The notes below the pieces were generated by a model, which worked only from the letters and a program-made list of their open reading frames with translations, was not told the DNA's origin and made no database searches. A stretch of 64,000 nucleotides of DNA from Earliella scabrosa (taxonomy: Eukaryota; Basidiomycota; Agaricomycetes; Polyporales; Polyporaceae), in contig JABYQQ010000013.1 in NCBI GenBank assembly GCA_022605405.1, positions 124,001 to 188,000 on the forward strand. Reading direction: 5' to 3'. The translations under genes were made by a program, and so were the position numbers. Position 1 is the first letter of the stretch. Every line of letters starts with the position of its first letter. Positions 32,981 through 52,310 of this stretch are shown here, one piece after another.

Positions 32981-33939
32981 ATGCACCCTGCGAACTCTTC
33001 TGGTGAACGCGTTCACGACTACAACGTTGTGCAAGGCAGTTACACAATCAAATGCGAGGTTAGTGAGCACTCGATCAGCAACTAGAAACAACGTGCTCAC
33101 CATCCATTCGAAGCAGTACCCAGACGAAACAACAGCCTTAACAGACTGGCATGCCCAACAGCCCCACCCGAACATGAATTATGTGGTCCCCGCGCCCCAT
33201 CATATCAGCCGACTTTCGACCTTGTCGCCAGTCATTTCAGAGATTGCTAGGCAAGCACCGAGAGTGAGCAATCTGTGTTGTAGTAAGATTTAGCCTTACC
33301 TATCTTTAGGCTCGTGTCGAGGAGCGTTGGACCCTGGGCCTGACCACCGAATGGGAACTTCTTCCATGCGCCGAGTACGACCGTGGCAGACCAACCACCG
33401 CCGGCAATCACGTAGTCGACTTCAGGTGCTACGGGGGACAAGAGCTTGTGCTGTCCAACGCATTGAGACGAAACTGTGATGACCTCGTAGATGGAGAGGC
33501 TCCAGCCTTGCCTTTCGATGTCTCCGCCAAGATCTCCATACGGATAGAGGTATAGTGTACTCCTTTATGGGCTGCGATTGAGATCAGTTGCTCACAACAT
33601 CGTGTTAGTTTCCGAATTGCGTACCATACACTAGGCAAATCATGGCTCGGAGGTCAACCAACACTGCCGAGCCTATCTCGCGGAAGGTCCTCGCTTGGAA
33701 GATAGCTGAAGAGATGGACAAGTGCCTGGTACGCTCTCTTCGCCTTGATGTCTGCTCCACTGCACCTAGACCCACACTAACTCTTGATCGTGAAGGATAA
33801 AACCAGAAAAGCAGGCCAGCCGCTGATGTATCGAGGAGAGGTTGTCAACATGGAACATCTGGCATTGTGTGAGCTTCGCAGGGCGTCATCGGGGTCGTGG
33901 GTTCCTGTGTTCAAGATTCTGGTCATGCGCTGTAACTAG
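32981..33939 (+). CDS. small hypothetical protein, family A member 3
   Basis: Five exons with all splice sites visible. ATG 32981; introns 33058 to about 33112, 33263 to about 33308, 33551 to about 33609 and 33730 to about 33796; stop TAG 33937-33939. The N-terminus has a PAPHHISRLSTLSP segment. The conserved core then has VVDFRCYGGQELVLSNAL and DDLVDGEAPAL, a KISIRIE end at a splice site, the CVPYTRQIMARRSTN motif, EPISRKVLAWKIAEEM, and a last exon with GQPLMYRGEVV ... SSGSWVPVFKIL. No frameshift or premature stop. Nearly the same gene lies 2.3 kb downstream (35306). Function unknown. Confidence 0.75.
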
Positions 33940-34412
33940 TATCGAGGCTTCCTATGGTGTGCTGATTGTCCGGGAGACCAATCCACTGTCCGTGAGGGTT
34001 CGTTAGTGCTGGGACGCTTCCACAGCATTTCTACTATGCGCTGCAATCGTCATTGCACAAGTCAGATATGTTTCCCAAGCGCGAATCATCACATAGTACG
34101 GCAGCTCACCTATGGTGTTGGGCGGAAATAGTATAAGACCTTGAGTGCACCGGAAGCCCCCTTGTCTCATCCTCGATTTCGCAACCACACGATGCTTCGG
34201 GTCTTGGATACTGTATGAAATGGATCGATATCGGCCATCGTGATCAGCAAACATAATCAATGACACGTGGCACAGAACCCACTTCCTGCCCGGCAGAGGA
34301 GGGCGAGACGCTCGATGAGAGATATCGGATAGCAGGGTCGGGGCAGGGATGTCCTACTGGTAGAAGTGAGATATCGTCCATCGTTGGTGGCATATATCTT
34401 GGGCGTGAACGC
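32981..34412. repeat. tandem segmental duplication, copy 1
   Basis: About 1.43 kb, including family A member 3 and about 470 bp of 3' flank, is repeated at 35306-36743. The two copies align colinearly with scattered substitutions and small indels; introns are conserved as well as exons, so this is a DNA-level duplication. The spacing between copies is about 2.3 kb. Confidence 0.8.
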
Positions 34413-35305: not shown

Positions 35306-36262
35306 ATGCACCCTGCGAAGTCTTCTGGTAAAAGCTGTCACAATTACAACAATGTGCAAAGCAATCGCACAATCAAATGCGAGGTTAGTGAGCACTCGAT
35401 CAGCAACTGAGAATAACGTGCTCACCATCCATTCGAAGCTGTACCCAGACGAGGAAACAGCCGTGAGGGACTGGCATGCCCAACAGACCCAACAGACCCC
35501 CCTGTACATGAATCATGTGGTCCCCGCGCCCCATCATATCAGCCGACTTTCGACCTTGTCGCCAGCCATTTCAGAGATTGCTAGGCAAGCACCGAGAGTG
35601 AGCAACCTGTGTTGTGATAAGACTTAGCCTTACCTATCTTTAGGCTCGTGCTGAGGAGCCTTGGACCGGTGAATGGGAACTTTTTCCTTGCGTCGAGTAC
35701 GGCCGCGGCAGACCAATCATCTCCGGCAACCACATAGTCGACTTCAGGTGCTACGGGGGACGAGAGCTTGCGTTGTCAAACGCATTGAAACGAAAATGTG
35801 ATGACCTCGTAGATGGAGAGATTCCAGCTTTGCCTTTGGATGTCTCCGCCAAGTTCTCCATACGGCTAGAGGTATAGTATACTCCCCTTTGGCCTGCAAT
35901 TGAGATCAGTTGCTCACACCATCGTGTTAGTTTCCGAACTGCGTACCATACACTAGGCAAGTCATGGCTCGACGGTCAACCAACACTGCCGAGCCTATCT
36001 CGCGGAAGGTCCTCGCTTGGAAGATAGCTGAAGAGATGGAGAAGTACCTGGTACGCTCTCTTTCGCCTTGATGTCTGTTCCACTGCGCCTGGACCCACGC
36101 TAACTCTTGATCGTGAAGAAACAAACTAGAATTGATGGCCGCCCGTTGATGTTTCGAGGAGCGGTTGTCGACATGGAACAGCTGGCATTGTATCAGCTTC
36201 GCAGGGCTTCGTCGGGGTCATGGGTTCCTGTTTTCAAAATTCTACTCGCGGGCTGTAACTAG
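35306..36262 (+). CDS. small hypothetical protein, family A member 4
   Basis: Five exons at the same places as the gene at 32981: introns 35384-35438, 35598-35642, 35872-35930 and 36052-36119; stop TAG 36260-36262. The product keeps every core motif: VVPAPHHISRLSTLSP, VDFRCYGGRELALSNAL, KFSIRLE, CVPYTRQVMARRSTN, EPISRKVLAWKIAEEMEKYL, GRPLMFRGAVVDMEQL, SSGSWVPVFKIL. It differs from its neighbour mainly near the N-terminus and by loss of about four residues after the third exon start. The frame is intact, so both duplicates may be functional. Function unknown. Confidence 0.75.
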
Positions 36263-36743
36263 TGTCGGACCTTCCTATGGTGTGCTAATTTTCTAGGAGA
36301 ACAATTCACTGTTTTTCGGGGTTCGTTTGTGCTGTCACGCTTCCACAGCATTTCTACTATGCGCTGCGATCGCCATTGCACAAGTTAGATATGTTTCCCA
36401 AGCGCGAATCATCACATAGCATGGCCGCTCACCTAGAGTAAGTATGATGTAGGGCGGAGATGATGTAAAAAGCTTAGTAAGCGCCCCGCCGTAAGTACTG
36501 TCTCAACTTCGAGTTCACAACAGGTTCGCAACTTCACGATGCTTGGGGACTTGAGTACCGCAATGGATCGATATCGGCCAACGTAGCGAACATGACCAAC
36601 ACCGCCACTTGCTGCCACCAGAAGAGCGTAGGACGCTCGATGAGAGATATAGGATTATGATAGCAGGGACGGAGCAGGGAAGTCGTACTGGTAGAGATGA
36701 GATATCGCCCATCGCTGGTGGCATCTATCTTGGGCGTGAACGC
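35306..36743. repeat. tandem segmental duplication, copy 2
   Basis: Colinear with 32981-34412, including the complete family A gene and about 480 bp of its downstream flank. See copy 1. Confidence 0.8.
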
Positions 36744-37412: not shown

Positions 37413-39051
37413 CTAGCCGTCACCGTCCTGCATGCCGGCCTCCCCAATATACAAGGCTCGTGAGAGCGTCCCACTCCTGTCAATGATCGCATAGCGGCCG
37501 CGGTCCTTGATGCGCCCGACGACGCACTGGATGGTGGTGATGTCGACGTAGTCCAGCGATCCGAGGCGGGTGTAGTAGTGAATATCGAGCGCGTCGTCGG
37601 ACTGCTCAATCTTGCAAGCTTGGATGACGGCGAATACGAGTGGTGTGGGTGTGAGGAGTCCGCATGATGCGTCGGCAGATAGAGTGAACTGGAGGATATG
37701 TTGCAACTGCCCGTAGAAGGTGCGTTTCACAAGTTGAATAGGGCGGTTGCGATAGCGTCTGTTAGTGTCCACCAGGAGCTCGTACTGTACAAACATTGGT
37801 GAGCCTTGTGCGTACAACTCGGCCTGGGCCCCGGAGAAATAATTCACGCACCCGGACATAACTAGCATCACGGCCATCTTGTGACCCTGCGTCCAGACTC
37901 AACGTGCGGATAGTGTCGCCATCTGGGAGAATGCGGACCTTGGCCCATTCCTGAACTTCAAGGGGAAGGCCGCGTCGTAAGTCTGCTGCAGTGAGTGTGT
38001 CAAACCGGGTGCCTAACGCAGAGACGAGCTTGTCCCGTGGGCCGCGTTCTAGAACCACAGCACGACGAGCTGGGAGGAGGACACAAGTGTCGTCTGGCAG
38101 AAGGGAGTGGTGAGAAAGGAGGACAAGGTGAGGGAGAGAATGCCGTACAACCGGTGATCGAGGTGCCACTCGTGAGAGCGCGGGGCGGTGAGAGTCTCAG
38201 CTCCGTCTTGACAGCCTGTCCATATCGGAGCTTGATCTGGTCGAGCCGCGCCCTGTCGAGAACGTGCCGGTTGAGAGAAGCATACGGGAAGCGGCGATTG
38301 GCGATCGCAGGCTGCAATGCGCCGCAATACCGCTCCATAGGGAACGCCCACGCGGCCCAAACAGGTCCGGCTTGTATTATGCTGTCTGCGATGTGGAGAA
38401 GCGCGTGGATCGTTAGCGGGACTGCAGGAAGGCGCTCGGGGTTCATCTGGTAGTAATATCTATGCAATGTATGAGCCAAATAACGGTTCATCTCGAGGGA
38501 ATGGAGAACTCACGTCTCATATGTTTGTACCCAAGAGATGAACCCAGAGCGAATATCCTCAACTTCCTCTACGGTCAGCTCGAATTGAAGGCACTGTCGG
38601 ACGAGCTTTATGAACTGCACAAGATGATCGTAGTACTTCTGTTGCTTGAACCGTCCACGGAGAAGCACGGGGGCGACGTATTGCATCCAGAATGATCGAG
38701 TGTCAGCGGTCCACGAGATCTTGTCGCTTGCAACGTTTGGTGGACGCGGCCCGAAGACATAAGGAATCGTACCTCCGGATTCCTCGCTTGCCAAGCCTAT
38801 AGCCTCCCAGACGGCTGATCCGAACTCGTAGTCTTCGCGGCCAGTATCCATGTCTTTATAGTTGCCTGACCAGAGGGCGATGAGGTTCTTCATGACGTTC
38901 TCGAAGATGAGATGCATGAAGTCGTATGGGAAGGAATGGGGAAACGAGAGGGAATGTAAGGTACTGAGGAGGGAGACACCTTTGACGCCGTACAACTTCG
39001 CCAACCGCTCGCTCTCGGCCGCCGTGGGGGCGAACTGGACGTCACGAGCGT
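37413..39051 (-). pseudogene. Plavaka transposase, C-terminal part (separated by LTR element)
   Basis: Begins in the exon with RDVQFAPTAAESERLAKLYG, then FPYDFMHLIFENVMKNLIALWSG, RSFWMQYVAPVLLRGRFK and VEEVEDIRSGFISWVQTYE. After an intron (38514 to about 38460) follow ERLPAVPLTIHALLHIADSI and FPMERYCGALQPAI. A further intron (about 38167-38098, GTGGCA...TGCCAG) joins the RALT end to CVLLPARR. Another, about 37889-37790, joins DASYVR to YELLVDTNRR. Then come FYGQLQHILQF and the conserved IQCVVGR...YAIIDRSGTLSRA end. These blocks are characteristic of Plavaka transposases. Broken only by the retrotransposon, so marked as a disrupted gene. Confidence 0.83.
39048..39051. other. target-site duplication, left copy
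   Basis: GCGT directly before the LTR that starts TGATGGG; the same GCGT follows the other LTR at 52307-52310. It can be read as 5 bp (AGCGT) if the terminal A of the LTR is assigned to the target. Removing one copy restores the Plavaka frame. Confidence 0.8.
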
Positions 39052-40056
39052 TGATGGGTGTGCTCCGGCTCTGTGTGCGGAAAGAAACAACTAAACCACA
39101 CTAAGAAACCAAGAACTCGAGAAGGTGGTGCGAGGTAGGGGATCTGGTTCCCGGGTTCGCAGGACGCGGACGCGGAGTCGACTCTCGAAAGGCTCTCGCG
39201 AAGGATCGCAGAGACCGCGGGGGAAGACTATGGAAGAGAGCTCGAAGGGGTGTGGCTAACTCAAGCTCTGCGGAGGGAACCCGCAGGACGGTGTTTCGAG
39301 ATGGGAAGAACGCAAATCGCAGGCGCAAACGCAAGTCGCTGTCGCAGACGCAAACGCAGACGCAAACGCACGCGTATTCGCTGAGTCTCGATGGGTGGGG
39401 GATTCGATTCCCTGGGGCTCCTGCCCTCGCACTACTCTAACTACACGATCCTGCGACCGTCCGCAACTCCGGAACGCGACAACCGAAAAACTTCTCGTAT
39501 CAACCCTTCCACCGCCCGCACCGTCCGCCTGATCCTCTCCCAACTGCGCGTGCCTTCGCCACATCCCCGTCCCGTCACCCTCAAACGCGGTCTTCGATCG
39601 CAATCTCGCCTCTCGACGAATCAGCCTCGAGGCTACCGGACGGTGGCTGTGCCCTCGATCCTCGGCACGTCCCTCCGCACGATCGCGTCCTCGCGCTCCC
39701 AAGTCTCGTCCGTCGGTCGCGATAGCTCGCAAGCTCGTGAGTGGCCAGCTTCGCATGACTCGGCCGAATGCCGCGCTCGCGACCCCCGCGCGCGATGTTC
39801 TTCCGCATCCTTGGCTCGCGGAACGTGCGTCCGAGGCTGCCTCGTCCCTCGCGTTGCGGAGCTCCGACCGGACCGTCGGGGAAATGAAGGGGTCTCGAAG
39901 TCGCGCGTGTTTTCGTGTGGTAGGGCCGCGCGCAGTCGGAAGGCTGGTGGGGCGCGGCTGCCGTCCGCGGGAAGGTCGCGCGAAGGGTTCGCGCGAAGGC
40001 GCGTCGCAGAGCGCGGGTCGACGAAATCGGGGCATGGCCGGTGCAGGTGCACAACA
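39052..40056 (-). repeat. 3' LTR
   Basis: 1,005 bp, TG...CA termini (plus-strand ends TGATGGGTG and GCACAACA). Reading base by base it matches the other LTR at a constant offset of 12,250 bp with no difference that I could find. It contains a short array of CGCAAACGCAGA-like hexamer units near 39310-39373. A 259-codon Arg-rich frame on the minus strand (39256-40035) recurs in both LTRs but looks like a product of base composition. Confidence 0.95.
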
Positions 40057-40068
40057 TCTCCCCCCCGC
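40057..40068 (-). promoter_or_regulatory. polypurine tract (plus-strand DNA primer)
   Basis: On the element's sense strand the sequence GCGGGGGGGAGA abuts the 3' LTR, the expected place for the RNase H-resistant primer of second-strand synthesis. Confidence 0.85.
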
Positions 40069-40109
40069 TAATATCGGGACTGTCCCCAGTCCCTCGAAGA
40101 CGGACGGGG

Positions 40110-40117
40110 ATAAAAGG
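40110..40117 (+). promoter_or_regulatory. TATA-like box of antisense gene 1
   Basis: ATAAAAGG, about 42 bp upstream of the start codon at 40152 and inside the element's internal region, just beyond the polypurine tract. Suggests an own promoter pointing away from the 3' LTR. Confidence 0.45.
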
Positions 40118-40151
40118 GGGGAACGCGCAGAAAGGGTTTCCGCACCTAACC

Positions 40152-40738
40152 ATGTCTTCGCCGCTTCCTCCGGACCTTCGCGAACGCGCCATCTCCGTCG
40201 CGATCCAAGCTCTCGAGCGAGCCGTCTTCGACCTCGAAACGCTCGCAGACGCCAACACCGAGTCGGACGCGGGTCACATCGCGGACATGTACATCGGGAT
40301 CATCCAGCTCCTGGTATGTCCTGTCTGTATTCCGTCTCGCGTGCGCTAACCCCTCACTCGTAGCGTCCGCTCATAGTCTTCAACTCCTCGCTTAACGCGG
40401 CGGCGCAATACGTGACTCGCACGCGCGACGCGCTTGAACGCGGTTGGCCCGACTTTGGGACGCGCTTCGCGAACGAGTTCTCGGACCAGGTTGTCGGGGT
40501 CCGCCGCAGCGCGCGTCTCGACAGCTTGATGACCGAGGTTGCCGCCGTCCGCGTTCGACTCCGCGAAGTTCGCCTCATCCGCCAGACCCTAGCCCGCGCC
40601 AACCAACACGACGTCCACTTCCTCATCCGCCTCGACGACGTCATCCTGGCCTTGGACCGCGAACAGACGGGGCTCGACTTCGAAATAGCGGCGTTGCGCG
40701 ACCAGAACAGGCGGGCGCTCCTTGCCGCGGACTGCTGA
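40152..40738 (+). CDS. antisense accessory gene 1 of the LTR element (helical protein, unknown)
   Basis: Two exons, 40152-40313 and 40364-40738, give a 178-residue protein. The 50-nt intron has a GTATGT donor, a CTAAC branch site (GCGCTAACCC) and a TAG acceptor; it is not a multiple of three, so splicing is required for the full product. The ATG sits in CACC-like context (AACCATG). The product is mostly alpha-helical, rich in Ala/Arg/Leu, with heptad-like C-terminal helices (VRLREVRLIRQTLARANQ and LALDREQTGLDFEIAALRDQN). No homology recognised. It runs opposite to gag and pol. Together with the next two genes it forms a compact plus-strand cassette. Confidence 0.72.
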
Positions 40739-40916
40739 GGGATGTTCGCGATGGGCGGCCGCGGCATAGGGGTCGCGGGGAACGGTCCATAGAGGGGATA
40801 GGGTAGATCGCGATTGTCGTTGATACGGAAATTCTGTAGCCCTTGAGACGCCACCAGTGTCGAGGGATTTAAGTCGTCGAGCGTCGCAAAGACGTCCCGC
40901 AACATCCTCTCGCACC

Positions 40917-41561
40917 ATGCCTTCACTGGGTTCCCAGATGGTTGAGCGCGCGATCTCGTACCGCGAAATGATCTCGCGGTTCTACCCTCTCGTCCGCCTT
41001 CGCACTGAGCACCTGCTTGACGCCATCGACGCTCAAGTGGCCCGCGGCCCCGGTCCGGGTCCCGTTGGTGCCGGCACCGCTCTAGACTTCGCCCTTCTCG
41101 TCGACCAGCTTGCGGAGTGTTACGTGAGCGCTGCTTCCATTTTTGATCGCCGGCGCCGCTTAATGAAATCGCAGATCATCCTCACCGCACTCCTCGAGGG
41201 CGACGGCGAATTCCACTCCGGCGTCAAGGATCGACTCCGCCTCGCGTTCGCGTCGGTCGAGGGCGGCCCCACGCTCGTCGAGCAGTTCAACAAGACCGTC
41301 GACGCCGCGCGCCCCGGTATCCGCTTGAGGTACCTCGAGGCGTACCGCGCTGTCTTCGCGTACGAGCAGGCCACCGTCGCTTCCATTCAACAGATCGCCG
41401 CGCGCCAGCTGTCACACGTCGCCGGAGAAGCCCGCGCGCGCGTCAAGTTGCTGCAGGACGACATCCACCGAATTGACCAGGAGACTGCCCGACTTGGGGG
41501 CGCAGTCCCTCAGCGCAGGTCCCTGATTGACCGCCTCGACACTGGTTCTGAGGAGTTCTGA
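40917..41561 (+). CDS. antisense accessory gene 2 of the LTR element (helical protein, unknown)
   Basis: Single open frame. The start at 40917 has good context (GCACCATGC) and a TTTAAG box lies about 45 bp upstream (40866-40873); an in-frame ATG at 40857 is also possible. 214 residues, nearly all predicted helix: SQMVERAISYREMISRF, RTEHLLDAIDAQV, LLVDQLAECYVSAASIFDRRRRLMKS, and a long C-terminal coiled coil around HVAGEARARVKLLQDDIHRIDQETARL. Size and helical make-up resemble antisense gene 1, so distant paralogy is possible, but I cannot align them convincingly. It begins 178 bp after gene 1 and ends 234 bp before the start of gene 3. Confidence 0.7.
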   Translation: MPSLGSQMVERAISYREMISRFYPLVRLRTEHLLDAIDAQVARGPGPGPVGAGTALDFALLVDQLAECYVSAASIFDRRRRLMKSQIILTALLEGDGEFHSGVKDRLRLAFASVEGGPTLVEQFNKTVDAARPGIRLRYLEAYRAVFAYEQATVASIQQIAARQLSHVAGEARARVKLLQDDIHRIDQETARLGGAVPQRRSLIDRLDTGSEEF

Positions 41562-41794
41562 GGAGGAAGGGGCGGCGATGTAGCGTAGAAGCCCGCGACC
41601 CTGTACTTCGCCGTTCGTCGAGCTGAAATTGTAGTGCGCGCGCGCAGCTCTTGTCCGCCGCGCCCGAGTTCATAACGCGTGCCTTCCGTCCGGTTCGCCC
41701 TTCAGCCCCTCTTCTCGTTCCGCCTTCCGCCCCTCGCTCAACTCGTCCCTCGTCTTCTTCGTCTCAGCCCATCCCGCACACCCGCCTCGCCACC

Positions 41795-43825
41795 ATGTCC
41801 TCGCCTCCGCCTCCCGAGTCCTCCAACACCATGGACACCCGCGCCGACGATCCCGCGACCGACGCCGCCGAAGTTGAGCTCCAGTCCAACGACGAAGACC
41901 TGCGCGTCGGCACTCCGTACGCGCCCGACGAGCTGCAAGAGCTCCTCCGCCTGTACACGCCCGAGGAGCTCCAGTCTGGCGGCGAGGAGGCCGCGAAAGA
42001 CTTCGCGCGCCGTTTCGTCCACATCGCCGTAAGTCCCGCGCCCCTTCGCGACTCCTGTCCGCAGCCACTAACCGCTTCGCAGTACTCGCTCGAGGACCCG
42101 TTCCAGTCGGACGACCTCTTCCCGGAGTTTTGGGAGCGGTTCGCTCCGCACGCTTCCCCTCGCTTGCAGGAGGTCGTCCTCCTCGTCTTCTCGGTCCGCA
42201 CTCGCGAGTCCCGGAGCGCCTCGCTCGAGGTGGAGCTCGCGGACTTGGAGACCAGCCGCCCGGACCACACGACTACGCCGCGCCAGGAGAAGGTGGTCAG
42301 GGCCCGCATGTTGGTGACCGACTGGGAGCGTAAGTCCTCGCGCGCCCCTCCTCTCTTGTCTTCTTCAGCTAACCGTCCCTCCTTTTGTCCCCCAGTCAAG
42401 CGCATCCGGGAGATCAAAGACTTCCGCCTGCTCAGGTCGGAGCCCATTCCCCTCCCGGTCGGCCTTGCCATCCTCGCCGGCGGCCTCTCTCGCCACTACC
42501 CTCGCCGCTCGACCGCGGAGCCGCCTAGCGCGCCCGTGACTCCCGGAGCGCCCTCGCGTGCACTGCTCCCTCCCGCGACGATCTCGACTCCGGTGCGCAT
42601 CAAGAAGGAGAAGCCCGATCCCGCGCCGGCTAAGGGCAAGCGCCGCGCGGTCTCGCAAGATGTCTCCGCGGACGAGGCTGATGCGGCCGCTGACTCCGAT
42701 GTCGTCGAGGTGAGCGAGGTCGTCCGTCCCCCTCCTGCCCACGGCACGCGCGCGCAACGCAAGGAGAAGATCGCCGCGCGGCCCGAGTCCGTCCGCAAGA
42801 GGGCCAAGGTCGTCGAGGTCTTGGAGTCCGAAGAGGAGGAGCTCGCGACCGCCGCAAAGCCCGATGACGCCGCAGACGACCCGCCCGCTTCCACTACGCC
42901 CGCCGCCCCCGTCGCCATCCTTCCCAACTCGAAGTACGCGCTCGAGTTCTTCGAGCCCTGCGACGAGTGCAAGACGCGCAAGTTCCCCATCTGCGTCCGT
43001 ACGCACGACGAGCGCGGCCTCTCCTGCGACTTCTGCGGGCACCGCTCGCGGAACATGCAGTGCACCCGCCGCGGCCTGAACTCGTACGGCGAGTTGAAGA
43101 CCAAGAGTAGGTCGACCTCCGTCGCGCTTCGTCGGTTCTACGCTGACTCGTCCCTTGTCGCAGAGAAGGGCGGTCGGCTTCTCGCGCAGTACAACGGCGT
43201 CGGTTTCGTCTTCCGCTCCTTCAAGACTCAGCTGCCCGAGTACCGCGTGCAAGCTGTCCAGGCCGTCCGCGCGTTCGAGAACGACCCGCCCAAGATCCGC
43301 GTCGCGCGCCCGAAGGAGCTGGCCGCGCGCGCCGGGCCTCCCGCTCCCACCGCCTACCCCATCATCGACCAGAACGGGTTCCTCCTTGAGGCCTACGATG
43401 GCGCCGCGCCCGAGAAGTCCGCGAAGGGCCCGCCGCTCCCGGAGTGCTACCCGCCGGAGAAGACCCCCGAGCCGACGCCTGCGCCCGCGAAGAAGAAGAA
43501 GGCCAAGACGTCGTCGGAGGGCGCGTCGGCTTCGGCTTCGAAGTCGTCTCGCGAGGTCGCCCCGCCTGCGGACCTCAGCCCGGCCGTGTCGAAGAAGGTC
43601 GCCGCATGCCGCAAGCGCGCGAACGTTTTGCTCGGCGAGATCGTCGAGCACGTCGAGGAACTCATTGCCGTCCGCGACCAGGAGGAGGAGTACACCGGCC
43701 AGGACTTCGGTGAGGCCGACCTGGACGATTCGGTTCGCGTTCCCGACCTGCTGACCTTCGCGGAGGTCGTCGACTCTCGCGAGTCCGACGCGCGGGTGTG
43801 GACCGTGCTCCGCAAGAATCAGTAG
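41795..43825 (+). CDS. antisense accessory gene 3 of the LTR element (Cys-cluster, possible DNA-binding protein)
   Basis: Start at 41795 (CACCATGTCC); the frame stays open upstream to 41651, so a longer start is possible. Three introns are visible: 42029-42082, 42330-42395 and 43107-43163. All have GTAAGT or GTAGGT donors and CAG acceptors; the first two have a CTAAC branch site and the third a CTGAC one. All are multiples of three (54, 66, 57 nt) and lack stops. The spliced protein has 617 residues. The N-terminus is acidic and helical, followed by basic Lys/Arg and acidic stretches (RKRAKVVEVLESEEEE). A six-cysteine cluster near residue 350 has spacing C-x2-C-x7-C-x10-C-x2-C-x8-C, close to the fungal Zn2Cys6 pattern. 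A KKKKAK patch and a helical C-terminal domain ending FAEVVDSRESDARVWTVL follow. Nuclear DNA-binding is inferred only. Confidence 0.75.
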   Translation: MSSPPPPESSNTMDTRADDPATDAAEVELQSNDEDLRVGTPYAPDELQELLRLYTPEELQSGGEEAAKDFARRFVHIAVSPAPLRDSCPQPLTASQYSLEDPFQSDDLFPEFWERFAPHASPRLQEVVLLVFSVRTRESRSASLEVELADLETSRPDHTTTPRQEKVVRARMLVTDWERKSSRAPPLLSSSANRPSFCPPVKRIREIKDFRLLRSEPIPLPVGLAILAGGLSRHYPRRSTAEPPSAPVTPGAPSRALLPPATISTPVRIKKEKPDPAPAKGKRRAVSQDVSADEADAAADSDVVEVSEVVRPPPAHGTRAQRKEKIAARPESVRKRAKVVEVLESEEEELATAAKPDDAADDPPASTTPAAPVAILPNSKYALEFFEPCDECKTRKFPICVRTHDERGLSCDFCGHRSRNMQCTRRGLNSYGELKTKSRSTSVALRRFYADSSLVAEKGGRLLAQYNGVGFVFRSFKTQLPEYRVQAVQAVRAFENDPPKIRVARPKELAARAGPPAPTAYPIIDQNGFLLEAYDGAAPEKSAKGPPLPECYPPEKTPEPTPAPAKKKKAKTSSEGASASASKSSREVAPPADLSPAVSKKVAACRKRANVLLGEIVEHVEELIAVRDQEEEYTGQDFGEADLDDSVRVPDLLTFAEVVDSRESDARVWTVLRKNQ

Positions 43826-44229
43826 GGGCCTCGCGCTCTCGTCGCGGGGCGCGCCTCAGTCGTGCCGCTATCGCAGCTCCGCTGTTGGCGCGCACATTCC
43901 GCGATCCTGGAGCTCGTGAATGCTGAGGCCGGTCCTCGCAGTCGCGCTTCGCGGGTCGCGGTCGCAGGCCGCTCCGCCGTGGTTCCCGGGCTTCCCTTTC
44001 TCGTCGTCTTCGTCCTCGCGCTCGCCCGTCTCGCTCTCCCTTCGCATCCCGCTCTCGCCATCGCTCTCGCCCGTCCCCCGCATCGCATCGCATCCCAGTC
44101 CCGTCCCGTCTCGAACTCGTGTCCCGTCGTCAAGTATCGTAAAAATGTATCGTAAAAGTAGTCGTAAGCTTCGTTTTGTGGCTGTTGTTTTGTAGTTTTT
44201 GTTTTCGTCATTTGCTTTCTTGTTTTATC

Positions 44230-44235
44230 AATAAA
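44230..44235 (+). terminator. possible polyadenylation signal for antisense gene 3
   Basis: AATAAA about 405 bp after the stop codon, in a T-rich stretch. Position is plausible for a fungal 3' UTR; function is inferred. Confidence 0.35.
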
Positions 44236-44495
44236 CTGTGTGATAGAAAGAGTGTGTGATTGACTTAAGTAAAAGTGTGACTGGTCTTCGAAGTAGTAAG
44301 TAAAGGAATGTCCCGCAGGGAAGTCCCGCGGGACGGTTCTGCGGAAAGAGTTCGCGAAATGGGTATATAGTAAGGAAAGTGTGTCGCAAAACAAGGCCGC
44401 GATAGGCGTTCGCGGGCTGTCGAAAGTCAGAGTTCGGAAATCGAAAAGAGCAAGTGATCGCAGGATAACCGTGTCCGAGTCATGTATCGTACCTC

Positions 44496-44510
44496 CTCCC
44501 CCCCGCTAAT
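44496..44510 (-). promoter_or_regulatory. internal second copy of the polypurine tract
   Basis: The 15-mer ATTAGCGGGGGGGAG on the sense strand is identical to that at 40072-40058 next to the 3' LTR. It lies about 47 bp beyond the pol stop codon, where a polypurine tract would lie if the accessory cassette were absent. Confidence 0.7.
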
Positions 44511-44556
44511 GTTGTCGACGTCCTCGTCGACGTCCCATCTTCGCGCACAAGAGCGC

Positions 44557-47500
44557 CTAATCTTCTTCGGCCTCCTCGGGCTCTCCCAGCCCTTCGTCCT
44601 CAAACGTCTCCTCGCTCTCCTCCATCTCGCGGATTCGTCTCGCGTCGACATCTAAGTCCTCCATCCTAAAAGGTATGGGGCTCTTCCTCGCGAGATACGG
44701 GATCAGTCGGAACGCGGCGATAGGGCGATCGTGCACGGCGCCGTCGAGTTCCGCGACGATGTAAGCGCCGCCCCGGTTGCGCGAGATGACCACCAGCGGA
44801 CCCAAGTATCGCGCGCGCATCTTGCGGTTTAGCGACTTCTCGATCGCAGTATTCCGCATGAGAACCAAACGACCGGGCTTGAAGTCGAAAGCCTTTGTCG
44901 TATACGCGTGGTGCTCCTCGTACAGTTCCGCGGCGCGAACTCGGCTCGCGTAGACCTTCGAGCGCAGTCGCGAGATTTGCTCGGGGCGCTTCTGCAGGGC
45001 GATCGCGCGCTGGGTGATGAGCTCGGTGGTCGAGATCATTTTGTTAGCCGTCGGCAAGAGGTAGGTTGCTTCCGCGATGTCGAGGGGCATGATCGGGTGC
45101 GTGCCTGTGACTGCATAGTACGGCGAGCAGCCCATTCGGCGTCGAACAGTGATCCGGTCCGCCCAGAGGACAGAGTAGACTCGCGAGACCCACTGACTCG
45201 GGTCTCCCTCGCAGGCCTTGTAGAGTGCGTCGCGTACGTGGAAGTGCGGGCGCTCGACGATTCCGTTCGCCTGCGAGTTGTAGCCTGAGATCCGAATGTG
45301 GTAGACGTGGTAGGTCTTCGCGATGTACTCGAGCGCGGCGACAAAGGGCGTCCCGTTGTCCGAGATGATCTCGCAGACGGCGCCCCAGCGACAAAGCAAG
45401 TCCTGGTAGATCCAGTCGCCGATCGCCTTCGCGGTCTGCGCCGTGCTCGCGCGTCCTTCGCAGTAGGTCGTCATCGCGCAGCGCGCGTGGAAGAAGTATC
45501 GGTACCGCCCCGGCATCTCCATGCAGTCGACGTGCACACGCATCATCGGGGGCGCGGGGATGGGGACCGTTGGGGGAATGCGAACTTTGGTGGTCTGTCG
45601 CACTTGGCACTGATGGCACGACCGCACGTACCACGCGATGTCCGCCTTCATCTCGGGCCACCAGAAGCGGTCCGCGAGGAAAGAGGTTGTCGCGGCAATC
45701 CCGCGGTGTCCGACGTAGTCGTGCATCTCGACGAGCGCTTGAGGTCGCTTCTCCGCCTCGAGGACGCGACGATGGTGCCCATCGCGTCCTACTTTCCACA
45801 GGCGGTCGTCGCGGAGGAAAAACTGGGAAGCGTACTTCGCGAACTTATCTGCCTCGCGTGATTCCATCGCGGGTCGTTCGCCAGTCGCGAGCCAGTGTTT
45901 GACTTCTTCGATTCTGAAGTCGAAGTCGCGCGCGATCGCGGTTCGCGGAAAGTCGCTGTACGGCGGCCGCGCGATCACAGGGAGCTTCGCGGCGGTTCCG
46001 CTCGTCTGCTGCATGAGAGTCTCGACTTCGTCGATGCTTCGCGGGACTGAGAAGTCGATCGCAGCGTCCCCGAGTCGCGGAGGAGGGTTTATAAGGTGCA
46101 TGAAGCCGTACATATTGTCGACCCAGTCCTCAAACTCCTCCCCGTCGTCCTCGTCGGGCTTGTCGTCTGGCTGCGCGGGTCGTCTGCTGAGGCCGTCCGG
46201 GGTATGGCTCTTTCCCGGAACGTGCACGAGGTCGAAGTGGAACATCTTGATCGCGATGATCCAGCGATTCATCACCGCAGATGGCGCGACGTCAGGGTTC
46301 GCGAGCATGTCCTTAATCGCGGTCGCGTCCGTCTCGACGACGAGCTTGCGCACGCCTACCAAGTGGAAGCGGAGCGCGCGAAGCGCGCGGAAAAGACCGT
46401 AGAGTTCGAGTTTCGGCTGCGAGAATCTCGCTTCGCGATCGTTCAGGGTGATGGAACAGAACCTGCTGTAGTAGCGCCTCCGCGGGTCCTCTTGGTCTTC
46501 TTGACATAAGTGGAAGCCGACCGCGATCTTAGACGTATCGACGGACAGAATCACGGGAGCGTCGGACTCGTAGTCGATCGCGCGGAGCGCCGGAGACGCG
46601 AGGAGCGCGTCCTTGAGGGTCTGCATTGCGAGCTCTTGTTCCGAGCCCCATTCGAACTGCGCGTCCTTTCGCAGAAGACGGTTGAGAGGGTGCGCCTTCG
46701 TCGCGTAGTCCTTGATAAAGATCCTCGCGACTCCGACGGTCCCTAGGAAAGCGCGAACCTCAGACACATTGGCACACGGGCCCCAGTTCAGGACAGCCTC
46801 GACGCCTTTCGGTTCCGGGACGCGACCTTCCGGGGTGCAGTGGTGTCCGACCGCGGTGAACTCCGGCGCTGCGCACCGAATCTTCTTCCCGCTGAAGGTG
46901 CCTCCTGCGTGCTTGACTCGCTGAACGATCCGATTGACGTCCTGCAGATGCTCCCACACGTAGCGCCGAACTCCGGGATTCTCGGGGATCGTCTCGTAGG
47001 TTCCGTCCTCGCGGCGGTATGCGCTCGCGGGACCGATCACCGTAACGTCGTCGATGTAGGGGATAGTGTACGCGGGGATCTCGGGTTGTAGGATGAAGGT
47101 TACGTCGTCGTGGAATATGGGAACTGAGTTCGCCCAGCCCATAGGAAGTGTGGTGAGGCGCATCGCGCCGAAGGGTGTTTGGAAGGTGGTAAGGTCTCGC
47201 GACTCTTCTTCGAGCTCGCGTTCGTCATAGCCGACGTAGAGATCGAGCGTGGTTCCGCAGGCGCGTCCCGCGAATCTCTCCGCCATATGGTCGGGGATCG
47301 GGGGCACGCCGCTGTGCTGAATCGTGACCTTGTTCAGCGGCTCGAGCGAATGGACGATCCGGATGTTCCCGTCCTTCTTGAGCACGCAGAACCATCGCGA
47401 CCGGTAGGACGCGTTTGACGGCTCGTAAACTCCGGAGTCGATCTTCTTGCGGATGAGCGCGATGACCTGATTGTAGATGCCGGGAGGGATGGGGAAGTTC

Positions 47501-48342
47501 TTCTCGATCCACGGAACATGCGGGATGACCGCGAGCTTAACCGGCGGGAACATGTCGCGACGGAAGTGCCCGCGCTCGGAGTCCTCCCAAGCGAAGCCCT
47601 CGTTCTGCTTGCACATCAAGTCGTCGAAGATCGCGAGTTCCTCGGGCGTCAGCCACTCCGCGTGATCCCCGTGCAGCTTCTCGCGACGCTCCGCGGTGTA
47701 ACGTCCGGTGGGTTCGAAAGGTTTGGGGTTGGGGTCTAGTGTAGGCATGTTCTCGAGAGGGTCGCCGACGTGGTTTCGGACGATGCGGAAGTGTTGTGGG
47801 AGCTCGGTCGGCTTAGGGTTGACCTTGAGCGCTACCGGTTTGTACTTCTTTTTCGTCTTCAGCAGTACTTCGACCTCCTCCTCTTCGCATGTGGGAGTCG
47901 CAGGACGGCCGTCCGGCTTCGCTTCGCGGGGTCTCGAATACGAACCCGATCGCGAGCGCACCGGACGCCGTCCGAGAGATTTCGTAGGGTAGACAGGCCT
48001 GACGCGCCCACGTGATCGCGTCCCGCGGATCGCGTCTGTAGGCGCTCGGGTATCTGGTGTCGCGCGACCGCGCTCCGGCTCGGAAGTCGTCGCATGAGGG
48101 GTATCGGTCGCGCGGGTAGAGTCGAGGGAAACCGAAACTCGAGACTGAGAGTTGAGATATGTATGGATTTCTGGTTTTACGCTGGGGTCGTCGCTCGCTA
48201 ATAAATACGCTTCTTGGATCGCGGTAGCTGAGGTATCTTCGAGGGCTCTATGCGCGGTGACGTATATCTGCCTCGTTTTCGCGTCGTAGTCCAGGACGAG
48301 GGCCACCTCTCCCTGACCGGAAATCAGATCATCGAAGTCCGA
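44557..48342 (-). CDS. pol: Pol polyprotein: reverse transcriptase, RNase H, integrase
   Basis: The open frame runs -1 relative to gag-pro and overlaps its end. There is no ATG near its beginning (first in-frame start-like codon is a GTG at 48306), so it is probably made by -1 frameshifting at 48348-48342. Residue numbers below count from 48306. A linker of about 200 residues is followed by reverse transcriptase (FQTPFGAMRLTTLPMGWANS; catalytic YIDD at about 417), RNase H (ILSVDTSK at about 585 and a C-terminal VVETDA), and integrase. The integrase has an H2C2 zinc-binding region (HDYVGHRG...CHQCQ, about 860-895) and the DDE residues in VDCMEM, SDNGTPF and GIVERPHFH. The C-terminus is acidic and has no chromodomain. 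No stop codon interrupts it; all catalytic residues are present. Confidence 0.95.
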   Translation of the reverse strand, partial: SDFDDLISGQGEVALVLDYDAKTRQIYVTAHRALEDTSATAIQEAYLLASDDPSVKPEIHTYLNSQSRVSVSLDSTRATDTPHATTSEPERGRATPDTRAPTDAIRGTRSRGRVRPVYPTKSLGRRPVRSRSGSYSRPREAKPDGRPATPTCEEEEVEVLLKTKKKYKPVALKVNPKPTELPQHFRIVRNHVGDPLENMPTLDPNPKPFEPTGRYTAERREKLHGDHAEWLTPEELAIFDDLMCKQNEGFAWEDSERGHFRRDMFPPVKLAVIPHVPWIEKNFPIPPGIYNQVIALIRKKIDSGVYEPSNASYRSRWFCVLKKDGNIRIVHSLEPLNKVTIQHSGVPPIPDHMAERFAGRACGTTLDLYVGYDERELEEESRDLTTFQTPFGAMRLTTLPMGWANSVPIFHDDVTFILQPEIPAYTIPYIDDVTVIGPASAYRREDGTYETIPENPGVRRYVWEHLQDVNRIVQRVKHAGGTFSGKKIRCAAPEFTAVGHHCTPEGRVPEPKGVEAVLNWGPCANVSEVRAFLGTVGVARIFIKDYATKAHPLNRLLRKDAQFEWGSEQELAMQTLKDALLASPALRAIDYESDAPVILSVDTSKIAVGFHLCQEDQEDPRRRYYSRFCSITLNDREARFSQPKLELYGLFRALRALRFHLVGVRKLVVETDATAIKDMLANPDVAPSAVMNRWIIAIKMFHFDLVHVPGKSHTPDGLSRRPAQPDDKPDEDDGEEFEDWVDNMYGFMHLINPPPRLGDAAIDFSVPRSIDEVETLMQQTSGTAAKLPVIARPPYSDFPRTAIARDFDFRIEEVKHWLATGERPAMESREADKFAKYASQFFLRDDRLWKVGRDGHHRRVLEAEKRPQALVEMHDYVGHRGIAATTSFLADRFWWPEMKADIAWYVRSCHQCQVRQTTKVRIPPTVPIPAPPMMRVHVDCMEMPGRYRYFFHARCAMTTYCEGRASTAQTAKAIGDWIYQDLLCRWGAVCEIISDNGTPFVAALEYIAKTYHVYHIRISGYNSQANGIVERPHFHVRDALYKACEGDPSQWVSRVYSVLWADRITVRRRMGCSPYYAVTGTHPIMPLDIAEATYLLPTANKMISTTELITQRAIALQKRPEQISRLRSKVYASRVRAAELYEEHHAYTTKAFDFKPGRLVLMRNTAIEKSLNRKMRARYLGPLVVISRNRGGAYIVAELDGAVHDRPIAAFRLIPYLARKSPIPFRMEDLDVDARRIREMEESEETFEDEGLGEPEEAEED

Positions 48343-50906
48343 AAACCCGCGCGCGACGTCTGCGATTGTTTCGGGCCTTCACCTCGCGCATACGTCGGTA
48401 GGGTGAGCTCGCGGCGCGAGTTCGGACAACGAACGGTGATCGTCTGACGACCGTCTGGCTTATTGACTACGGTGCCGGAGACTAAGACGTCGAAGGGTCG
48501 ACCGAGGAGGACGTCGTAAGAGGCGTTCCGCACGACGTGCATCTGTAGGTAGACGACGACTCCGGGGCCGAGTTCGACTGCGACGTTCCTCGCGAGACCG
48601 AGCGTAGGGTCGACTGTGCCGTTCGCGCTGACCATCCGCAGACTAGAGGACGGGTCGTAAGGGATCTTGAGCTCGAAGCACTTCGCCTCGCTGATCGCGA
48701 CAATCTGCGAGCCCGGGTCGAGAACGCATTCGGTCGGGACGTCCGAGTTGTTGACATGCGCGAAGATAGACCTCAACTTGTGAGTCTTATCCCCGACGAC
48801 GATGTCAGGTCCGACGTCCTCATCCTCATCGCGCGAAAACGTTCCGCGGCGTACGCGGTACATCCCGCGGGGTAGCTCCTCGTCTTCATCATCCGACTCC
48901 GCCTCTTCGACCGTCTGGGACGCCTTCTTCTCCCGCGAAAGCTTGAAGGTCTCCGCTTCATCCCCGCTGTGCGTCCACACCGTCGGCTCGTCCTCCTCCG
49001 GACAGTCCTGCACGAACGTCTTGTACGTCCGTCCCTTCCCCTTATCCTCGCCCTTCTTCTTCGTCCTCTCATCTCCCTCGTCTTCTTCGTCCTCTCCCGC
49101 AGCCTTCTCCCGCGCGGCGCGAATCGCGAACCGCCGCGAAGATGTCGCGTCGTTCAGCATCTTCCGGATCCCCGGAGACACGCTCAAGAGCTCGACCGGG
49201 GTCATGGTGACCGACTGCGCTTCGCCGAAGCTCCTCTGAAAGACTCGCTTCTCCGCGTTGGGGTCTACGATCGCGGCGGTGTGACGGTACGCGGGCTCGG
49301 TTCGCGAAGGAGTGTCGGTCGCGCTGTTCGCGCGCCTGTGGTTCCCGAAGGCGAAGTCGCGCGCGATAGGCTCGGCTGTGACTGGGGGTCGCGTCTTCGA
49401 GTACGGGTGGATCGGGATGTTCTCGTCGTCCTTGTCGCGAGAAGGCCCTTCATCCCGCGCGACCCGCTGCATAGCCTCCGCCCGGTCTGACAGGTGCGGT
49501 GGCGCATCGCGCTTCCGCGGCTGCTCGCGATCCTTCTCAGACTCCTCCCGCGTGTGCTTCTTCGGACGCGTCGTGATCTCGACTCCGTCGAACCGGACCT
49601 TGCGCTTCTGTTTCTCGAGCTCCAGCTGACTCTTGAGCTCGCCCGCGCGCTGCATCAAGACTGCGAGTTCCTCCTCGATCGTGCTCTCGCTCTCCTTCGC
49701 GCCAGCGTAGTACGGGTCTTCTTCGGGCTCGACGACTAGCATCATGTGGCCGACTTGGGTAGGGTTCTTCTTGCCGGGATTGAGGTCGTGCCAGACTAGA
49801 ACGCGCTCGCGCATGCAAGTCCCGGGAAGGTTCCGAGGGACGAAGGTGCCTTTCGGAAGGAAGATACGTCCTCCATCGCCGCGTTCGATGAGACCGTTCG
49901 CGAGATCTTCGCGAGCCGCCGGGCAGGTCTTAGAGTGGCACCCAGCGGTCCCGCAGTAGAAACAGTTTTGGTCCTCGCCTGCGAAGCCCAGTCCCGCATT
50001 GCTCAGCCGGACGTTCGCAGGGGGTCCTCGCGGTATGTCGTTCCGCTGCCAGCCTCCTCCTCGCGGCGCGTCGTCGCGCGGGAACCCTCGCTGTCCTCCG
50101 TTCTCATTGCGGAACAGGGTACGAAAGGTCTCCGTCATCGCGCTCAGCATCTCTTGCTTGAAGGACTCCAAAGCCGGCTCCTGCTTGACTTCGCGCGCGG
50201 GCGTCTGCGCGCTCTGGGTCGCGAACGCCGAAGTGCCTAAGAGAGACGACCCCGCGCCGGACCGAAACCGATGGTCGGAGCCCTGAAGGAGTACGCCGAA
50301 AGGGCCTTGGTCTTCGAGGCAATAGGTCATAGCCTCGTGCACTTCCGCGACGGAAAAGGGGTCGCTCGGGTGCTTGTCGGGGACCTTGTTCGCGAGACGA
50401 GCGCTAACGGCTGCGGCCTTCTCGGGCGGGACAAGGCTGAGGAGCGCGGCTGCAGCGTCATCCTCTGCGATGCCGGGTCGCGGCTTCGTCGACAGGTATC
50501 GGAACATAGGATAGAACTTCCGGTAGAACTCGGAGTATTCCTCGAGGGTGTGAATCCCCTTTTCGCGGGTGTCGTTGACTAACTTGTTAAGCTGTGCCCG
50601 TGACCAGACGTGACTAGAGTCCGATCCGACGTAGAACCCCAAGACTTCATCGCGGAACTTCTCGTAGGTGTCGGTAGGTCCCTTGTTCGTGAACGTCTGC
50701 AAGACCTTCCAGGTTTTTGCGACGTCGATAGGCACGTATAGGAGCGCGGCCTTTTTCTTCTCTTCTTCGGATGTCACGCCCTCGCGCGCGAGTAGGCGCT
50801 CGAGCTCCTCGAAGTACTCCGCGACGGCATCTCGCGAAGACGGATCGTACCGCGGAGCCTCCTTGCTTCGCTTCAGGGGCAGCTTGTCGAATCCGGTTGA
50901 AGCCAT
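48324..50906 (-). CDS. gag-pro: Gag-protease polyprotein
   Basis: ATG 50906, stop 48324, 860 residues. The N-terminal part is a Gag capsid-like helical domain (VAEYFEELERLLAREGV, AKTWKVLQTF, YEKFRDEVLGFY, LEEYSEFYRKFYPMFRYL). Near residue 312 lies a zinc-knuckle-like CFYCGTAGCHSKTC, in which the usual CX2CX4HX4C histidine is displaced by one position. A long charged linker follows, then an aspartic protease-like domain with LDPGSQIVAIS at about residue 728 and YDVLLGRPFDVL further on. The active-site triad reads D-P-G instead of the usual D-[ST]-G. I recall the same form in other basidiomycete Gypsy elements, so it may be a clade feature. The last codons carry the frameshift heptamer. Confidence 0.93.
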   Translation of the reverse strand: MASTGFDKLPLKRSKEAPRYDPSSRDAVAEYFEELERLLAREGVTSEEEKKKAALLYVPIDVAKTWKVLQTFTNKGPTDTYEKFRDEVLGFYVGSDSSHVWSRAQLNKLVNDTREKGIHTLEEYSEFYRKFYPMFRYLSTKPRPGIAEDDAAAALLSLVPPEKAAAVSARLANKVPDKHPSDPFSVAEVHEAMTYCLEDQGPFGVLLQGSDHRFRSGAGSSLLGTSAFATQSAQTPAREVKQEPALESFKQEMLSAMTETFRTLFRNENGGQRGFPRDDAPRGGGWQRNDIPRGPPANVRLSNAGLGFAGEDQNCFYCGTAGCHSKTCPAAREDLANGLIERGDGGRIFLPKGTFVPRNLPGTCMRERVLVWHDLNPGKKNPTQVGHMMLVVEPEEDPYYAGAKESESTIEEELAVLMQRAGELKSQLELEKQKRKVRFDGVEITTRPKKHTREESEKDREQPRKRDAPPHLSDRAEAMQRVARDEGPSRDKDDENIPIHPYSKTRPPVTAEPIARDFAFGNHRRANSATDTPSRTEPAYRHTAAIVDPNAEKRVFQRSFGEAQSVTMTPVELLSVSPGIRKMLNDATSSRRFAIRAAREKAAGEDEEDEGDERTKKKGEDKGKGRTYKTFVQDCPEEDEPTVWTHSGDEAETFKLSREKKASQTVEEAESDDEDEELPRGMYRVRRGTFSRDEDEDVGPDIVVGDKTHKLRSIFAHVNNSDVPTECVLDPGSQIVAISEAKCFELKIPYDPSSSLRMVSANGTVDPTLGLARNVAVELGPGVVVYLQMHVVRNASYDVLLGRPFDVLVSGTVVNKPDGRQTITVRCPNSRRELTLPTYARGEGPKQSQTSRAGFRTSMI
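48342..48348 (-). promoter_or_regulatory. candidate -1 ribosomal frameshift site GGGTTTT
   Basis: The heptamer G-GGT-TTT fits X-XXY-YYZ in the gag-pro frame, six codons before its stop. Slipping back one base leads directly into the pol frame (next codon TCG), which is open from there to 44557. A downstream stem-loop was not worked out. Confidence 0.65.
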
Positions 50907-51280
50907 GGGTGGCGTAGTTGCGATAGGAAGTGGATTGAAAGGGATAGGGGGTGGGATAGGGAAAGGGGGTGGAGATTGGGTTCGCGGGTTTGCTCGCGGA
51001 AGGATTTCGCGGAGAGGGGTATGGAACGAATCGCGGGGAGAGTCCTCGAGATCGGTAAGAGGAGACGAACCGAAGATGTCTAAATCGATCCGCGTTCTAG
51101 GTGTGCGGGGGACCTCCAGCTGACTTCCGCGGGGCGGTGAGCCTGCGTCGGAGTCTTCGATGGGGGTTAATTCCGCGTCGAGTTCTTCGCGAAATTGTCG
51201 GAGGGCAGCGGCCGTCCTTTCGATGTAGATGTCGAGGGAATCGTCTAGGGACCTGTTACCGGCGGTGGCAGATTTACTCC

Positions 51281-51298
51281 CCCTCGCGGTGGGCTCCA
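51281..51298 (-). promoter_or_regulatory. primer-binding site
   Basis: On the sense strand TGGAGCCCACCGCGAGGG starts three bases after the 5' LTR. It would pair with a tRNA 3' end reading CCCTCGCGGTGGGCTCCA, which has the obligatory CCA. I cannot name the tRNA. Confidence 0.75.
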
Positions 51299-51301
51299 GA
51301 A

Positions 51302-52306: not shown

Positions 52307-52310
52307 GCGT
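52307..52310. other. target-site duplication, right copy
   Basis: GCGT directly after the LTR that ends ACAACA; matches 39048-39051. Confidence 0.8.

Follow-up and report, generated by a model that had tools for sequence, protein, structure and literature searches.

Within a 64,000-nucleotide stretch of the genome of the wood-rotting polypore Earliella scabrosa, a basidiomycete of the Polyporales (C13:124001-188000; the whole stretch is called the window below), we have found that a Ty3/Gypsy retrotransposon carries three plus-strand genes between pol and its 3' long terminal repeat (LTR), opposite to its own gag and pol, and that all three are protein-coding and under purifying selection. 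Versions of this package also occur in related elements and appear to be exchanged among them, suggesting that it serves to control the life cycle of the element itself. The genome searched comprises 51.67 Mb in 48 contigs.

An antisense cassette of three constrained genes

All cassette genes lie on the plus strand. The first, g1 (40152-40313 and 40364-40738; 178 aa), has one intron (40314-40363), g2 (40917-41561; 214 aa) is intronless, and g3 (41795-42028, 42083-42329, 42396-43106 and 43164-43825; 617 aa) has three (42029-42082, 42330-42395 and 43107-43163). The introns have GT...AG ends and branch-like sites of the type CTAAC or CTGAC. A TATA-like box, GATAAA (40109-40114, plus strand), stands 43 nt ahead of the ATG of g1 and is retained in 15 of 17 copies of the region, and a second one, ATTTAA, stands 50 nt ahead of that of g2; the genes gA and gB of sister families, described below, have TATAAA or TATAAG 43-56 nt ahead of them. 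Downstream, an AATAAA resembling a polyadenylation signal (44230-44235, plus strand) is retained in 16/17 copies. A first-pass annotation of this DNA had marked three antisense genes with introns at these positions, together with the two TATA-like boxes and the AATAAA, and the present gene models agree with it in all these points. We infer that the cassette genes are transcribed from promoters of their own beside the 3' LTR, independent of the sense promoter.

Used as a DNA query, the 4.5-kb region gave 21 matches in the genome, and 17 copies were taken for comparison. Each of the three genes is intact in 15 of these 17, with GT...AG introns retained; thus the intact frames reported by the first-pass annotation are not a peculiarity of the window copy, and its own concern that other copies might lack or break the region is not borne out. 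The broken or incomplete cases are g1 and g3 in C8 and C2a, and g2 in C2a and C2b (in C2b by one stop); g3 of C1c, counted as intact, has an in-frame deletion of 36 nt. In the window copy the g3 introns are multiples of 3 and stop-free, and a plain open frame reading through 732 codons was therefore considered. This candidate is ruled out, because the second intron, 66 nt in most copies, is 64, 67 and 68 nt long in C2b, C4 and C32 with exon length unchanged (spliced g3 is 1854 nt in 14/17 copies, including these three). Since such length changes would break a read-through, plus-strand splicing is strongly supported. The same intron is 65 and 68 nt long in C2a and C8. In the intact copies, frame-shifting indels are confined to an intron, and several introns of the sister families contain stops or shift the frame.

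Selection was tested on 15 complete copies, with C8 and C2a excluded, and a polymorphism was called shared when its minor variant occurs in at least two copies. The shared polymorphisms, synonymous to nonsynonymous, number 19:0 in g1, 20:2 in g2 and 51:20 in g3 (per site 0, 0.03 and 0.13), and here too the possibility raised earlier, that substitutions among copies would reveal no purifying selection, is contradicted. For singletons the numbers are 15:13, 13:12 and 76:56 (per site 0.29, 0.32 and 0.25), and newer changes are therefore under weaker yet visible constraint. The mean ratio of nonsynonymous to synonymous substitution rate (dN/dS), calculated for pairs with dS >0.05, is 0.04 for g1 (70 of 105 pairs), 0.07 for g2 (73/105) and 0.14 for g3 (43/105). 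As a control, gag, compared in 15 copies over the initial 1104 nt of its coding sequence, gave 21:0 for shared and 15:12 for single changes; thus the constraint on g1 and g2 equals that on gag, and that on g3 is somewhat less. Between the window and copy C4, the differences fall at third codon positions in 15 of 15 cases for g1, 12 of 13 for g2 and 53 of 73 for g3. Overall, all three cassette genes are protein-coding under purifying selection. Chance or compositional open reading frames are ruled out by the selection and intron data, and a host-gene capture in a single copy is ruled out by the multiple genomic copies.

The element itself spans 39052-52306, LTR to LTR. Its 3' LTR (39052-40056) and 5' LTR (51302-52306), both in minus-strand sense orientation, are the same at 1005 of 1005 bp and have the ends TG...CA, and a 4-bp target duplication, GCGT, flanks the insertion (39048-39051 and 52307-52310). 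With no difference in its LTR pair, the element is young and recently inserted. The cassette-side part of the LTR is presumed to be U3. The pol frame (44557-48378, minus strand) has the Pfam domains RVT_1 (333-513), RT_RNaseH (577-712) and Integrase_H2C2 (876-929), in the order found in Ty3/Gypsy elements. The gag-protease open frame occupies 48324-51350 on the minus strand, and the first methionine of the part aligned between copies is at 50906. Together, the two frames contain Pfam reverse transcriptase, RNase H, integrase zinc-binding and aspartic protease domains.

Related families, doubled polypurine tracts and cassette exchange

Searching with 500 aa of pol, we have found relatives at 74-75% identity on contigs C23, C11 and C1. 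All of them have genes antisense to pol between pol and the LTR, in the order gA, gB, gC. The elements on C1 (L052) and C11 (L051) are of the same type, to which a third copy, recognised on C42 from search matches only, also belongs, and the element on C23 (L050) represents another type. gA and gB, lying in tandem, are paralogous (44% identity, expectation value (E) 2e-39), and g1 is homologous to both (E 1e-5 to gA and 5e-4 to gB in a seven-protein set; neither score was reached in 300 shuffles), with an intron whose position corresponds by eye to theirs. Similarly, a comparison of four proteins, corrected for composition, shows g3 and gC to be homologues (E 3e-10 and 7e-10). The first two introns of g3 and gC correspond by eye; the third follows a cysteine array in g3 and precedes that array in gC. 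A common descent of g1 and g2 is merely hinted at, as 6 of 300 shuffles reach the score, and we do not claim it. For gC the dN/dS is 0.65 between types and 0.10 within a type, and for g3 it is ~0.14 within the family; that is, this gene is constrained inside a type and strongly changed between types. In L051 the donor of the first gC intron is changed from GT to AT and no stop interrupts the remainder of the modelled frame; judging from this site, gC of L051 may be mis-spliced.

The g3 type extends beyond these elements. A stand-alone homologue, gD (C1:2657690-2659636, minus strand), which matches the database protein C8Q76DRAFT_789688 at 90-99% identity exon by exon, has two introns, one before the cysteine array and one after the N-terminal part, that match those of gC, and no pol-like frame was seen in the 7 kb around it (L056, C1:2655500-2662500). 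It is either a host source or a stranded element gene. The public gD model omits half of the cysteine array present in the re-modelled gene. In the protein database searches, two of three of which scored ~8000 candidates each, unnamed ENA proteins were found at 90% (one) and 97-99% identity (four), and another search returned gD and an ENA fragment at 99%. These ENA relatives (P0001-P0005 and P0007) are at 90-99% identity, and P0007 includes the C23-type cysteine region. The cassette types probably occur outside the present assembly too.

The cassette is bracketed by two polypurine tracts (PPTs), both read on the minus strand. The outer tract, PPT2 (40057-40096; sense AGCGGGGGGGAGA), has a hairpin directly upstream in sense orientation, and the inner tract with its hairpin, PPT1 (44492-44535), forms a second PPT module between pol and the cassette. 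A 15-mer, CTCCCCCCCGCTAAT, occurs exactly at 40058 and 44496, and these are its sole sites in the window at up to 2 mismatches. Both hairpins are small and their stem sequences differ. Of the 17 copies, 15 have the outer 15-mer unchanged and 14 have its complete hairpin (the exceptions being C2b, C8 and C2a), and the inner 15-mer is exact in 14 and recognisable in 16. The doubled PPT with hairpin brackets the cassette in all three types examined (focal, L051/L052 and C23). L051/L052 have a matching pair of their own and the pair of C23 is the same as theirs; at the outer PPT of C23, the lowest-energy fold of 75 nt is unlike the others. Since the two tracts are alike within a type and unlike between the focal and sister types, both should have been constrained or kept alike.

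A search for PPT2 plus one half of the hairpin gave 17 genomic places, and the control gave 0. At one place, C11:454334 (L049, C11:453900-454900), the LTR end, PPT and hairpin are as in the focal element and are followed directly by a gag-like minus-strand frame, without cassette. The LTR end motif occurs there twice, ~400 bp apart, and the L049 element is probably a non-autonomous derivative. The presence of the PPT module without the cassette suggests that replication requires the module in cis. The inner PPT would prime a second plus strand.

A comparison of C23 with L052 reveals an abrupt change of divergence. The synonymous difference is 0.085 in the last 318 pol codons, and reaches 0.54 in gA, 0.64 in gB and 0.55 in gC, nearly as far as focal and sister pol are from each other (0.66). 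In 80-base steps, identity is 90-98% on the pol side, 77% in the step with the inner PPT and ~40-80% towards the cassette. The divergent block continues through the outer PPT and ends inside the LTR, the far 400 bp of which are 95-100% identical. On these comparisons, the C23 element is a mosaic, in which the cassette and the PPT2-side part of the LTR have a history unlike that of pol, with one breakpoint at the inner PPT; either the cassette side or the pol side may have moved. Neither this mosaic nor the doubled PPT had been noted in the first-pass annotation. The other breakpoint is presumably in R, the site of the first strand transfer. Breakpoints in the LTR and at PPT1 are what is expected from a switch between co-packaged RNAs. 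Within the focal family, the synonymous distances of gag and cassette in 13 copies disagree in some (0.007 vs 0.045 for C11, 0.037 vs 0.010 for C1b, and also C4) and agree in others (C3a, C17 and C19). The C23 element further has an insertion of ~3.6 kb in pol (~3802-7369 in reverse-complement coordinates), a long palindrome with tandem repeats inside, its full length matching its reverse complement at 91% identity.

A possible regulatory role and its rivals

None of g1, g2 and g3 has a Pfam domain above the cut-off. The four g3-type proteins (g3, gC52, gC50 and gD) are weakly similar in their N-terminal part and have in common a six-cysteine array (residues 349-383 in g3), a motif A..N..GF and a C-terminal stretch, and all four have basic, nuclear-signal-like runs. 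The pattern C-x2-C-x(6-8)-C-x(8-12)-C-x2-C-x(6-8)-C, with 1-3 residues of extra latitude, was formulated after inspection of the four proteins; it fits 4/4 of them and 0 of 20000 shuffles of each. Zn2Cys6 clusters of the Gal4 type have the spacing C-x2-C-x6-C-x5-12-C-x2-C-x6-8-C. The arrays share with Zn2Cys6 (PF00172) the six cysteines in C-x2-C ... C-x2-C, and gD fits the strict spacing, whereas g3, gC52 and gC50 have 7-8 residues instead of 6 in the first loop and fit only with a longer loop. This is a hint that the g3 array, which resembles the fungal Zn2Cys6 DNA-binding clusters, is a candidate DNA-binding domain. For the g1 family, the modelled part is a helical hairpin with a predicted local distance difference test (pLDDT) score of 84, and it has no specific fold match; of the 284 matches listed, none is at E up to 0.001. 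In a PDB sequence search the best match was transcription elongation factor 1 (E 0.026), which we have not accepted as homology.

We consider it a little better than an even bet that the cassette is a self-regulatory or anti-silencing module of the Ty3/Gypsy element, with the element's own LTR as target. As the genomic RNA is the other strand, the cassette introns would escape splicing in retrotransposition, and intron-bearing genes could ride along. The g3 protein would enter the nucleus, bind DNA via its six-cysteine cluster and act on the LTR of its own family by activation or counter-silencing, and g1 and g2 would be small helical partners with an accessory role. The inner PPT would start a second plus strand and/or be a template-switch point, and the cassette and the adjoining LTR promoter would move as a matched regulator-plus-target unit. 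The first-pass annotation had offered control of transcription, silencing escape or nuclear entry of the element; the six-cysteine array, the basic runs and the common history of cassette and LTR part favour the former two over nuclear entry. More tentatively, and with considerable doubt, the cassette may be a replaceable regulator module, consisting of three antisense, intron-bearing genes with a Zn2Cys6-like nuclear factor and framed by two PPTs with hairpins, where strand transfer in the LTR, combined with switching or the start of a plus strand at the inner PPT, would swap cassette and LTR promoter between lineages as a matched unit.

On the other hand, several observations weigh against the regulatory reading. 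No homologue of g2 was detected beyond the focal family, the sister families included, and to speak of the same three genes is thus inexact. No cassette was recognised in single copies of two Gypsy families further removed from the focal one, L053 (39% identity) within 8.5 kb and L054 (29% identity) within 7 kb; the end of L054 is chromodomain-like by eye. Pfam Zn_clus (PF00172) is unmatched by g3 at E up to 1 and by trimmed gC50 and gD at E up to 10, and the predicted structure of the cysteine region (gC exon 4) is unusable (pLDDT 36). Moreover, the mosaic rests on a single element, C23, which has the 3.6-kb insertion in pol, and a common history of cassette and LTR part can come from reverse-transcription mechanics alone, without co-adaptation.

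The cassette proteins could also serve retrotransposition itself, not transcription, through particle assembly, nuclear import of complementary DNA, choice of integration site or copy-number control via Gag interference. We regard this as unlikely, though it deserves some weight: the constraint on g1 and g2 equals that on gag, the helical hairpin of the g1 family fits protein-protein interaction, and the cassette stays with gag and pol within the family. However, the six-cysteine array and basic runs of g3 point to nucleic acid or chromatin, and the near-identical pol end of C23 and L052 goes with very different cassettes, so a tight match to that part of pol is unnecessary. Another reading takes the antisense RNA as the key product, controlling the sense RNA through double-stranded RNA, with the proteins secondary. 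The geometry ensures overlap with the sense genomic RNA, and such a role is proposed for plant elements in PMC7264820; selection nevertheless acts on the amino acids, and the differences between copies fall mostly at third codon positions, which makes this reading quite improbable.

That the three are captured host genes, carried as passengers by transduction and of no use to the element, has slightly less to recommend it still. The stand-alone gD, with two introns as in gC and no pol-like frame nearby, would suit such an origin, but gD could just as well have been left behind by an element, there are several diverged types of the cassette, and the purifying selection at shared polymorphisms, at gag strength for g1 and g2, contradicts it. 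As for the C23 mosaic, faster evolution of the cassette instead of recombination seems the least credible explanation of all those considered here. The g3/gC proteins do evolve fast, as their dN/dS between types indicates; yet the synonymous difference jumps at least ~sixfold at the junction, the two parts of the LTR differ likewise, and gag and cassette synonymous distances conflict in some focal copies (C11 and C1b).

Outside the element, the minus-strand frames on its two flanks (38510-39100 and 51883-53664) resemble one gene split by the insertion, possibly a transposase, and a domain search of these frames gave no identification. At coordinates below the element, there are direct repeats (32981-34412 and 35306-36743), ~2.3 kb apart, with pieces 84-93% identical.

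Comparison with known antisense genes and significance

Internal repeats of the PPT sequence are known as the central polypurine tract of lentiviruses and the second PPT of Ty1, and the focal, L051/L052 and C23 types likewise have a second, internal copy. In contrast to those systems, the inner PPT of E. scabrosa comes after pol, brackets an accessory cassette and has, like the outer one, a hairpin beside it, and its use as primer is putative. In human T-lymphotropic virus type 1 (HTLV-1), the antisense gene HBZ in the 3' region has a nuclear product that regulates the LTR. The present genes are also antisense and in the 3' region, though the E. scabrosa cassette is multi-gene and regulation of the LTR would be its counterpart by inference only. 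An HTLV antisense promoter is mentioned in PMC7264820.

Plant elements of the aORF-3R kind, as described in PMC7264820 and PMC11963269, include Grande (gene23), RIRE2 and the Retand lineage with a TRP28 domain; antisense TRP28 genes are present in 97% of Retand clusters and have been proposed to be regulatory (PMC11963269). According to these papers, the plant elements resemble ours in the long region between pol and the 3' LTR, in antisense genes kept in most copies, and in nuclear or DNA-binding proteins with a proposed regulatory role. Two defining traits of aORF-3R, a gene antisense to gag-pol between pol and the 3' LTR and its retention in most copies under constraint like that on the sense genes (judged against gag, with g3 weaker), are present in E. 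scabrosa, and for a third, transcription from its own promoter, the TATA-like boxes are candidate signals. On the other hand, TRP28 (PF04195) has no Pfam match in g1-g3 (E up to 1) or in gA, gB, trimmed gC50 and gD (E up to 10), and the three-gene cassette with introns, the bracketing PPTs and the evidence of exchange are features described here for E. scabrosa.

In fungi, the Boty / BcGypsy1 element of Botrytis cinerea has one antisense gene, brtn (Zhao et al. 2011, as reported in PMC7264820 and PMC8365987). It is likewise a fungal LTR element with an extra gene antisense to gag-pol, and is among the pol-to-3' LTR cases in PMC7264820. By description, not by sequence, the two differ in that Boty is from an ascomycete with one gene, whereas here a basidiomycete has three genes with four introns in total. 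The word 'antisense' is absent from the available text of the survey of fungal LTR elements by Muszewska (PMC3248453). Among the literature matches listed, with most subscription journals outside the coverage, no title or abstract dealt with a fungal element that has several antisense genes in a cassette, or with doubled PPTs around such a cassette. Of the novelty that the first-pass annotation had claimed for fungi, the multi-gene, intron-bearing part holds among these matches, and the antisense accessory gene as such had already been described with brtn. What appears to be new beside Boty and the plant cases is the multi-gene, intron-bearing and modular nature, the antisense placement itself being already known.

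That LTR retrotransposons can have antisense accessory genes is no recent discovery, and what these genes do is an old question. E. scabrosa offers many young copies, proteins with strong evidence of selection, several diverged versions in a single genome, a natural mosaic and a candidate DNA-binding domain, and this system makes it testable whether an antisense gene regulates its own LTR, the mosaic pointing to the LTR as partner. The introns illustrate a benefit of the antisense orientation, in that genes opposite to the genomic RNA can keep their introns through reverse transcription. In addition, the doubled polypurine tract suggests a physical basis for modular exchange. If the cassette is indeed a replaceable module, elements could acquire a new regulatory or anti-silencing specificity at a single stroke.

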